Source: Thermocatellispora tengchongensis
GTDB lineage: Bacteria > Actinomycetota > Actinomycetes > Streptosporangiales > Streptosporangiaceae
Reading direction: 5' to 3'
NCBI RefSeq assembly: GCF_014202315.1
Contig: NZ_JACHGN010000001.1
Coordinates: forward strand, 147,757 to 211,756
Length of the DNA stretch: 64,000 bases
The notes under the pieces were generated by a model. The model had not been told where the DNA came from. It searched no databases and was given only the letters and a program-made list of their open reading frames with translations. A program made the position numbers and the translations under genes. Positions 13,024 to 15,360 of this stretch are shown one piece after another (position 1 is the stretch's first letter; every line of letters starts with the position of its first letter).

Positions 13024-13404
13024 TCAGGTCTCCTGTGGGGGATCTCCGTTCCCGAGGACGAACGAGACCGTCAGGTGGTTCCAGCCACAACCTTGACAGA
13101 CCTCTACCACGTAGACCCGGAATTCGCGGTATTCGCGCGCCATCTCGGCGAGGTCTGACGTGGCCTTTACCCTGCCCACCTGGCGACCGAGCTCGTCGCC
13201 GTAGACATAGGTCACGTTGGTGACGTTCCTTCGCTCGCACACCGGGCAGAGGCGTTCGGTCGGCTCGCCGTGGTAGCGCGCGGCGCGAAGGAGGTACGGA
13301 TGCGCGTCACATACGTCGTCGTGAGAGCAGCGGCCGGTGCGCAGAGAGCGAACCGTCGCCCTCTTCGCGAGGCCGTAGTCCACGACCGATCGTTGTGACC
13401 ACAT
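13024..13404 (-). CDS. DUF5318 family protein with zinc-ribbon-like cysteines
   Basis: This 126-residue protein starts at the ATG at 13404 (MWSQRSVVDYGLAKRATVRSL). A four-cysteine arrangement, C-P-V-C-E-R-R in the middle and C-Q-G-C-G-W near the end, suggests a zinc ribbon; another pair of cysteines lies in RCSHDDVCDAHPYLLRAA. The family is restricted to Actinobacteria and sits upstream of the class A PBP in Mycobacterium as well, so the linkage is old. The function is unknown. It is the first gene of the minus-strand PBP unit and is divergent from padR. Confidence 0.85.
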   Translation of the reverse strand: MWSQRSVVDYGLAKRATVRSLRTGRCSHDDVCDAHPYLLRAARYHGEPTERLCPVCERRNVTNVTYVYGDELGRQVGRVKATSDLAEMAREYREFRVYVVEVCQGCGWNHLTVSFVLGNGDPPQET

Positions 13405-13517
13405 ACGCGCCAGAGTACGGCGTTTTGCCGATTCGCCCCAACCTCTTGGGGAACTCGTGAACATCGCCGCAGGCCAGGCGGCGTTGCGACGTTATGCCGC
13501 GGCGACGTATCCTCGGG

Positions 13518-13536
13518 ATGTATCGGCTCGATACAT
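13518..13536. promoter_or_regulatory. Perfect palindrome, putative PadR operator
   Basis: ATGTATCG-GCT-CGATACAT is an exact 8-bp inverted repeat with a 3-bp centre, 60 bp upstream of the PadR-type gene. PadR-family operators are built from inverted ATGT/ACAT half-sites, which are the outer bases here. The site lies in the divergent 191-bp region between the DUF5318 gene and padR, so it could autoregulate padR-ino1 and also affect the minus-strand unit. Confidence 0.65.
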
Positions 13537-13595
13537 CGATGCGAGACGTTGGAGTAGCCGGGCCGGAGACCGACGAGAGGGGAGGCGGGTTTCCA

Positions 13596-14267
13596 ATGGC
13601 GTCAGGCGGACGGGGCAACGTCTTGGAGCTCGCCGTGCTCGGCTCACTGCACGAGACCCCGCTTCATGGCTACGAGCTGCGCAAACGGCTCAACGCCCTG
13701 CTCGGGATGTTCCGGGCCTTCTCCTACGGCTCGCTGTATCCCTGCCTGCGCTCGCTGCTGAACGACGGGCTCATCGTGGAGGAGCAGCCGCCGGCCGAGG
13801 GCGTCGCCCCCCTCACGGGCCGGCGCTCGAAGATCGTCTACAAGCTGACCGCCGAGGGCAAGGAGCGACTGCAGGAGCTTCTCACCCAGTCCGGCCCTTC
13901 GGCCTGGGAGGACGAGAGCTTCGGCGTCCACTTCGCCTTCTTCCGCCACACCGAGGCCGAGGTCCGGCTGCGCATCCTCGAAGGGCGGCGCAGCCGGCTG
14001 GAGGAGCGGCTGGAGGCCGTGCGCACGGCCCTCGCCCGCACCAGGGAGCGGCTCGACAGCTACACCCTTGAGCTCCAGCGCCACGGGCTGGAGTCGGTCG
14101 AGCGGGAGGTGCGCTGGCTCAACGAGCTGATCGCGACCGAACGGCGCGCCGAGGCGCGGGCCGTGAACGAAGGAACCACTGACACCACGACGGGGCGGCC
14201 CGAGGGCGAGGCCGAGACCCCCGGCGCGGACGACGGTCCCCACAGGGCCACGGATACGGATGAGTAA
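13596..14267 (+). CDS. PadR family transcriptional regulator
   Basis: This 223-residue regulator starts at the ATG at 13596 with GGGAGG about ten bases upstream. The N-terminal winged helix has the PadR pattern [23 protein letters not shown] followed by [22 protein letters not shown] and the wing [18 protein letters not shown]. The C-terminal half has a [22 protein letters not shown] segment and a coiled-coil-like region for dimerisation. The last ~45 residues are acidic and disordered. Only 13 bp separate it from ino1, so it probably controls inositol synthesis. A PadR gene next to ino1 is also seen in Mycobacterium (Rv0047c-Rv0046c). The inducer is unknown. Confidence 0.9.
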
Positions 14268-14280
14268 GGGAGCGAGTGCC

Positions 14281-15360
14281 ATGGGTTCGGTGCGCGTAGC
14301 GATTGTCGGAGTCGGCAACTGCGCGGCGTCACTGGTGCAGGGGGTGCATTACTACAAGGACGCCGACCCGGGCACCCGGGTCCCGGGCCTGATGCACGTC
14401 CGCTTCGGCGACTACCACGTGGGCGACATCGAGTTCGTCGCGGCCTTCGACGTGGACGCCAAGAAGGTCGGGCGTGACCTGTCCGAGGCCATCGTCGCCT
14501 CGGAGAACAACACCATCAAGATCACCGATGTGCCGCCGCTGGGCGTGACCGTGCAGCGCGGGCACACCTACGACGGTCTCGGCGAGTACTACCGCGAGAC
14601 GATCCAGGAGTCCGACTTCGAGCCCGTGGACGTCGTGCGGGTGCTGAAGGAGTCGCGCGCCGACGTACTGGTGTCCTACCTGCCGGTGGGCTCGGAGGAG
14701 GCCGACCGCTTCTACGCCCAGTGCGCGATCGACGCCAAGGTGGCCTTCGTCAACGCGCTGCCCGTCTTCATCGCCTCCGACCCCGAGTGGGCCGCGAAGT
14801 TCACCGAGGCGGGCGTGCCGATCGTGGGCGACGACATCAAGTCGCAGGTGGGCGCCACGATCACGCACCGCGTGCTGGCCAAGCTGTTCGAGGACCGCGG
14901 GGTCGAGCTGCTGCGCACGTACCAGCTCAACTTCGGCGGCAACATGGACTTCATGAACATGCTGGAGCGCAAGCGGCTCCAGTCCAAGAAGATCTCCAAG
15001 ACCCAGTCGGTCACCTCGCAGATCCCGCACGAGATGGCCAAGGCCGACGTGCACATCGGCCCGTCGGACCACGTGCCGTGGCTCGACGACCGCAAGTGGG
15101 CCTACGTCCGCCTTGAGGGCCGCTCCTTCGGCGACACTCCGCTGAACCTGGAGTACAAGCTGGAGGTCTGGGACTCGCCGAACTCCGCCGGCATCATCAT
15201 CGACGCCATCCGCGCCGCCAAGATCGCCCTCGACCGCGGCGTCGGCGGGCCCCTGGTGTCGCCCTCGTCCTACTTCATGAAGTCGCCGCCGGAGCAGTAC
15301 TCCGACGACGACGCCCGCGACGCCGTGGAGAAGTTCATCCGCGGCGAAGTCACCCGCTGA
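14281..15360 (+). CDS. ino1: Inositol-3-phosphate synthase
   Basis: This 359-residue enzyme converts glucose-6-phosphate to L-myo-inositol-1-phosphate with NAD, supplying inositol for phosphatidylinositol, mannosylated phosphoinositides and mycothiol. The Rossmann motif [16 protein letters not shown] is at the N-terminus. Further family marks are [45 protein letters not shown] and [12 protein letters not shown] chose the ATG at 14281 with GGGAG nine bases upstream. It is co-transcribed with padR and followed by a strong terminator. Mycothiol production would link it functionally with the SigR-controlled thioredoxin genes further on. Confidence 0.96.

Follow-up and report, generated by a model that had tools for sequence, protein, structure and literature searches.

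A conserved palindrome before padR-ino1 of Thermocatellispora tengchongensis, the probable operator of an InoR-type PadR regulator

The DNA analysed here (the window) is a stretch of 64,000 nucleotides from Thermocatellispora tengchongensis, in which a perfect palindrome precedes the genes padR and ino1. The core of this element adjoins nearly every sampled copy of the regulator gene across the actinobacterial phylum. We consider it very probable, at odds of nearly nine in ten, that this palindrome serves as operator for the PadR protein whose gene lies downstream, a probable ortholog of InoR, which would repress its own gene, block ino1 and be released by a small molecule. That this PadR is the binding protein, that repression is the sign of its effect and that a ligand takes part are points that we infer from comparison of sequences. 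The features of the locus are collected in Table 1.

Table 1. Features of the padR-ino1 locus, its divergent neighbour and related sites
Feature	Position	Strand	Remarks
Core operator, perfect palindrome ATGTATCG-GCT-CGATACAT	13518..13536	.	Present (at most 1 mismatch) in 80/80 loci, the best 80 of at least 577
Likely -35 element TTGCGA	13484..13489	+	TTGC columns conserved in 102 non-redundant contexts
Likely -10 element TATCCT	13508..13513	+	18 bp after -35; TATCNT columns conserved
Octamer unit 1 GATGTATC	13517..13524	.	Member of the 13-bp phased set
Octamer unit 2 GATACATC	13530..13537	.	13 bp after unit 1
Outer upstream unit GACGTATC	13504..13511	.	Differs from GATRYATC at one position; 13 bp ahead of unit 1; shares bases with -10
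Degenerate outer downstream unit GAGACGTT	13543..13550	.	Half-site GAGACGT in register, 13 bp after unit 2
padR (probable inoR ortholog), 223 aa	13596..14267	+	PadR PF03551; PDB relative 8jxk_A
ino1 / inoA, myo-inositol-1-phosphate synthase, 359 aa	14281..15360	+	Inos-1-P_synth PF01658; other in-frame start 14260
DUF5318 gene	13024..13404	-	Listed ORF begins 13464; conservation favours ATG 13404
DUF5318 promoter: TTGGGG 13441-13436, TACTCT 13417-13412	13412..13441	-	7 bp before ATG
Methyltransferase-linked sites	L049/L275, L048/L278 (group A); L047/L296, L295/L297 (group B)		

The padR-ino1 genes

Read from the window, the sequence at 13518-13536 is exactly the perfect palindrome that an earlier sequence-only reading had described, with arms of 8 bp each around a spacer of 3 bp. 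The same reading placed a PadR gene about 60 bp further on, and the ATG at 13596 indeed leaves a gap of 59 bp. The predicted product belongs to the PadR family (PF03551, 56.3 bits against a curated Pfam cut-off of 27). It has a close relative in PDB chain 8jxk_A ('Conserved protein', E 3e-58), which we take to be an Rv0047c-type protein, and a distant match in chain 1yg2 (AphA). The gene that follows directly on the same strand encodes an inositol-1-phosphate synthase (PF01658, 123.6 bits against a Pfam cut-off of 27), which is the arrangement of the InoR-InoA pair. Between the end of padR at 14267 and the start of ino1 at 14281 lie 13 bp, and if ino1 starts instead at the alternative in-frame ATG, 14260, the two genes overlap; either arrangement is consistent with the single operon that had been proposed. 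The nearest named relatives in the protein search, among the matches listed, were from Streptosporangium, Planotetraspora, Nonomuraea and the like.

Conservation of the site among relatives and across the phylum

When the window was shuffled 100 times, no shuffle contained the palindrome at three or fewer mismatches. The genome-wide search suggested in the sequence-only reading was done on the whole assembly (11,649,915 bases, 62 contigs) with up to two mismatches in the arms, and it found the place at 13518-13536 and no other; the reversed control pattern gave 2. The same pattern was then applied to 60 genomes, the own genome included, and matched in 45. In 44 of these the site stands before padR, and in the 45th (G007) the match is at an unrelated place. 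The 44 linked cases comprise 43 loci that were read plus the own genome; of the 43, 42 show ino1 and the remaining one, L009, is a short stretch.

A protein search gave at least 577 relatives among 592 stretches, and the best 80 were kept, which are therefore the nearest relatives of the window's locus. In all of these 80 (best 80 of at least 577) a site with no more than one mismatch precedes padR with ino1 present; 64 are exact and 16 have one mismatch. One of the contigs with padR-ino1 and the operator, L118, is labelled as a Spirochaetaceae metagenome-assembled genome and encodes a PadR that is 71% identical; this label is probably a binning error.

For a wider view, PadR was sought by protein profile in a phylum sample of 246 genomes. 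At E <= 1e-30 it was found in 107 of them, as a single copy in each and with the same gene order, and all 107 loci were read. The ino1 gene is downstream in 104; the remaining three stretches end before it could appear. Upstream of 103 of the 107 padR orthologs, and of 85 among the 89 that belong to other classes than the window, there is a site whose score exceeds 99.9% of the values obtained from 2140 mononucleotide-shuffled upstream regions, by a matrix built from loci of the window's class, three of the 107 genomes among them. The top shuffle scored 14.4, which exceeds the five weakest of the 103 sites. Compared with ATRTATCGNNNCGATAYAT, 47 of the 103 have no mismatch, 43 have one and 13 have two. 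Only 17 of the 107 retain the strict ATGTATCG/CGATACAT form with at most one mismatch; a strict-pattern search of all 246 genomes matched in 19, of which 17 have the site at padR-ino1 and two (L157, L160) elsewhere.

The sequence-only reading had named absence of the palindrome before orthologous padR-ino1 pairs as the result that would speak against it. The outcome was in its favour: with 80 of 80 loci (best 80 of at least 577) and 103 of 107 phylum-sample orthologs, the palindrome is a conserved cis-element of padR-ino1. These counts and the window shuffles also rule out a chance palindrome.

The sites of the phylum sample stand before the PadR gene in 30 families. Their core letters TATC and GATA are almost invariant, and at the variable position the two arms covary (13 G/C, 9 G/T, 14 A/C and 66 A/T, with one other excluded; Fisher P = 0.0002 in a calculation that ignores relatedness among loci). 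Seven PadRs from outside the class, 35-47% identical to that of the window by tblastn, are encoded behind a site that differs from the strict form at no more than one position. The putative operator is thus unusually old, since its TATCG-N3-CGATA core is kept while the regulator drifts to 35-47% identity. A search for PadR residues that vary along with the A/G exchange in the arms of the site supports no claim, as its top columns seem only to separate clades.

The six phylum-sample genomes of family f6, probably mycobacteria and their kin, have a weaker form of the operator, 3-4 mismatches away, for example ATATATCGCTCCGATACTA. The four of the 107 orthologs that had no site all belong to family f72 (L266, L268, L270 and L271); few of the 107 PadRs score as low as those of these padR-ino1 pairs, and the site may therefore have been replaced.

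Loss or divergence of regulator and site

PadR was looked for, at E <= 1e-20, in 16 of the 60 genomes, namely the 15 with no arms match and G007; it was found in eight of them and not in the other eight. Among the eight positive genomes, none of which has a strict match, the site of L052 has three mismatches and that of L053 is cut by a contig end; the other six have weaker variants with 3-5 mismatches, such as ATATATCGAAGCGATATAG, 50-276 bp upstream. Five loci from same-family relatives whose PadR has diverged (L054, L055, L057, L058 and L059) carry a TATATC-N7-GATATA-like site; it lies some 150-276 bp ahead of the conserved PadR start and is followed by what looks like a shared stretch.

Six of the eight genomes lacking PadR encode an Ino1-family protein, which in five is close to that of the window (78-85% identity) and in one is not. 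PadR was not found on the stretches read around ino1 of these genomes, of which that of L143 begins at a contig end. Upstream of ino1 on the padR-less stretches of G010 and G006 (L142 and L144), TATATC...GATATA-like letters were seen by eye, and these seem to be decayed remains of the operator. The strict site was not found in the genomes without PadR, apart from one unrelated two-mismatch place in G007. Among the 60 genomes, then, presence of the site and presence of the regulator agree.

Promoter of padR-ino1 and phased half-sites

Alignment of 102 non-redundant contexts on the first base of the palindrome revealed two further conserved motifs that are directed toward padR. The letters TTGC at -33 to -30 are found in 92, 68, 67 and 64 of the 102, and the columns of TATCNT at -10 to -5, the N column excepted, in 85-89. 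The two motifs are separated by a nearly fixed distance and the pair ends 4 bp before the palindrome. On conservation alone they are likely to be the -35 and -10 elements of the padR-ino1 promoter; a generic σ70 scan of 13400-13620 reported neither a promoter nor a terminator. Given the position of the -10 element, the start point should fall near 13519-13521, inside the palindrome's left arm.

Copies of the half-sites recur around the palindrome in a register of 13 bp. In 87 non-redundant loci, with two mismatches permitted, the right half-site is found again at +13, +26 and +39 bp in 34, 14 and 7 loci, respectively, and 59 loci have the left half-site repeated 13 bp upstream, against a background of about 1 and largest off-register counts of 8 (right) and 12 (left). 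In 67 of the 87 there is a unit 13 bp away on at least one side, downstream (+13) or upstream (-13). The -13 unit shares bases with the -10 element, so that the promoter accounts for at least some of its conservation. Outside the window's class the first downstream copy is found at one mismatch or fewer in 39 of 85 sites, compared with none at the median offset. The extreme case is L020, with seven extra downstream units in register and nine half-sites before padR in all. The self-complementary octamer GATATATC stands unaltered at unit 1 in 49 of the 85 outside-class sites and at unit 2 in 37, and 32 sites have it at both units; being self-complementary, such a unit could pair with either of its neighbours.

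Sites at other genes

Nine of the 53 arms matches in the 60 genomes lie away from padR-ino1, compared with 11 for the reversed control pattern. Six of the nine were read; the other three were classed as unlinked because the linked site of each genome stands elsewhere. The extras are at control level, and a general second regulon was rejected on the evidence of the arms pattern. Three of the nine are also exact matches to an octamer pair, GATRYATC-N5-GATRYATC, which was run on the same 60 genomes as an exact pattern. It gave 39 matches in 36 genomes and none in the control. Of these, 35 are at padR-ino1 and four are elsewhere, and all four of the latter are located 40-51 bp before a gene for a SAM-dependent methyltransferase, in two ortholog groups. 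Each of the four is accompanied by TTGC and TATCNT-like boxes whose spacing is close to that seen at padR-ino1, and InoR itself or another PadR may act there.

Most orthologs of these methyltransferases in the loci read for the two groups are without the octamer pair. In group A (20 loci) the exact pair is found in 2 of the 12 closest loci, L277 has a pair with two mismatches next to a gap in the assembly, and no octamer pair was found in the eight more distant loci. In group B it is exact in 2 of 4 loci and none was seen in L298; the gene start of L299 was not located. The sequence-only reading had spoken of a dedicated repressor for inositol and mycothiol precursor supply. This fits the own genome, with its one site, but in four of the 60 genomes the same promoter-operator stands before methyltransferase genes. 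Also in the own genome, directly after an ABC-transporter gene pair at C10:350142 (L274), there is a solitary octamer pair that has one mismatch.

Probable mode of action

If the downstream PadR binds as supposed, a dimer on the palindrome would cover the predicted start and reach the -10 element through the outer half-site. Bound there, it would block initiation by RNA polymerase and so repress both padR and ino1, and the outer units may hold further dimers. A need for inositol phosphate would be signalled by a small molecule that loosens PadR from the DNA. Zhang et al. (2012) reportedly describe InoR as a repressor, with glucose-6-phosphate, the substrate of Ino1, as its signal in Streptomyces.

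The phased half-sites allow a broader and more tentative proposal, namely that the operator is an ancestral, phylum-wide row of self-complementary octamers every 13 bp, -10 element included, with units that are GATATATC-like outside the window's class and GATGTATC/GATACATC here. PadR would bind along the array cooperatively, so that the number of units, from two to nine, would set the strength of repression, and in some lineages the promoter-operator as a whole would have been captured by methyltransferase genes. We regard this as possible, and rate it somewhat lower than we otherwise would because 48 of the 87 non-redundant loci (77 of all 124) have no extra downstream unit at two mismatches or fewer.

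The site might also serve PadR as an activator or a dual regulator. Some PadR-family proteins, AphA for one, activate transcription; the AphA chain 1yg2 is a distant match to the window's PadR. In Streptomyces the padR-ino1 operon is down in an abrB mutant (PMC7581861), a result compatible with either sign. The palindrome, however, overlaps the predicted start and touches the -10 element, the usual position for repression, and we think activation unlikely.

More doubtful still is binding by an unlinked regulator, such as the developmental WhiI, with padR a mere passenger of the operon. The WhiI DNA-binding domain is reported to bind the S. coelicolor sco3900-3899 promoter in vitro (PMC4125116); S. 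venezuelae ChIP-seq (PMC4125116, PMC5133688) also counts for WhiI, and the listing of sco3900-3899 and sco3901 as σE targets in S. coelicolor (PMC6767563) counts for another regulator. Yet it is a PadR gene that the site precedes in 30 families of the phylum sample (a count made for padR), and genomes lacking PadR lack the strict site as well, the unrelated place in G007 excepted. A protein-free hairpin in the 5' leader RNA, acting as an attenuator or on ribosome access, is highly improbable: the predicted start would put most of the palindrome in the leader, but the half-sites keep a 13-bp DNA register that extends upstream of the start, and the TATC and GATA letters of the core are nearly invariant. 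Autorepression by the downstream PadR remains the preferred reading.

The divergent DUF5318-PBP unit

It had been suggested that the palindrome might also act on a divergent PBP unit. A PBP gene with Transgly and Transpeptidase domains (Pfam) is indeed present, but the immediate neighbour is the DUF5318 gene, and PBP comes next. The DUF5318 gene has a conserved promoter of its own: in 45 non-redundant DUF5318 upstream regions, the columns of TANNCT at -13 to -8, seven bases before the ATG, are matched in 33-37. Because the TACTCT box stands so close to the ATG, the DUF5318 mRNA is probably leaderless, beginning at 13404. The palindrome is 76 bp from this promoter and does not overlap it. Since the unit has its own conserved promoter at that distance, direct control from the palindrome is unsupported. 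The divergent layout is common: of the 80 loci (best 80 of at least 577), 74 have a PBP domain and 29 have DUF5318 in divergent orientation to padR. Yet nothing ties the operator to the DUF5318-PBP unit. A separate link between padR-ino1 and the divergent unit is their shared listing in S. coelicolor, where sco3900-3899 and sco3901 are both given as σE targets (PMC6767563). An inverted repeat, CCCCAACCTCTTGGGG, at 13436-13451 overlaps the -35 element of the DUF5318 promoter, and similar letters were seen by eye in some close relatives.

Relation to known systems

The classical PadR operator has the consensus ATGT-N8-ACAT. As the sequence-only reading noted, the window palindrome shares the inverted ATGT/ACAT ends beside a padR gene; these ends are set 11 bp apart (ATGT-N11-ACAT), however, and the likeness does not extend to the classical spacing of 8. 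The conserved core TATCG-N3-CGATA and the extra half-sites in a 13-bp register are further differences.

Inositol phosphate feeds the mycothiol and inositol lipids of actinobacteria, and the operator bears on control of inositol supply in Streptomyces, in rare actinomycetes and, through the variant site, probably in mycobacteria. The gene pair itself is already known as inoR-inoA (SCO3900-SCO3899 in S. coelicolor), which PMC4255298, PMC4125116, PMC5133688 and PMC7581861 credit to Zhang et al. 2012, and PMC7581861 also to Zhang et al. 2010; the pair in the window is therefore a further case of a known system. In both, a regulator gene (Pfam PadR for the S. coelicolor gene, PMC6767563) and, immediately after it, the synthase gene form one operon. 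The arms of the window palindrome recur in named Streptomyces loci such as L095 and L099, and the proteins of L095-L139, mostly from Streptomyces, share 59-73% identity with the window's PadR (S. coelicolor is not among these loci; identities are among the matches listed). A literature search of titles and abstract openings, with the key subscription papers outside its scope, found no description of the operator among the matches listed, and its phylum-wide reach and phased build may be new.

A comparable arrangement is that of Rv0047c-ino1 (Rv0046c) in Mycobacterium tuberculosis, where a PadR gene is co-transcribed with ino1; PMC3899939 suspects this mycobacterial PadR of controlling ino1, and IpsA, a LacI-type protein, is given there as a further regulator. 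A stop mutation in Rv0047c, together with a change in Rv3068c, is reported in PMC5571309 for two of four drug-resistant isolates.
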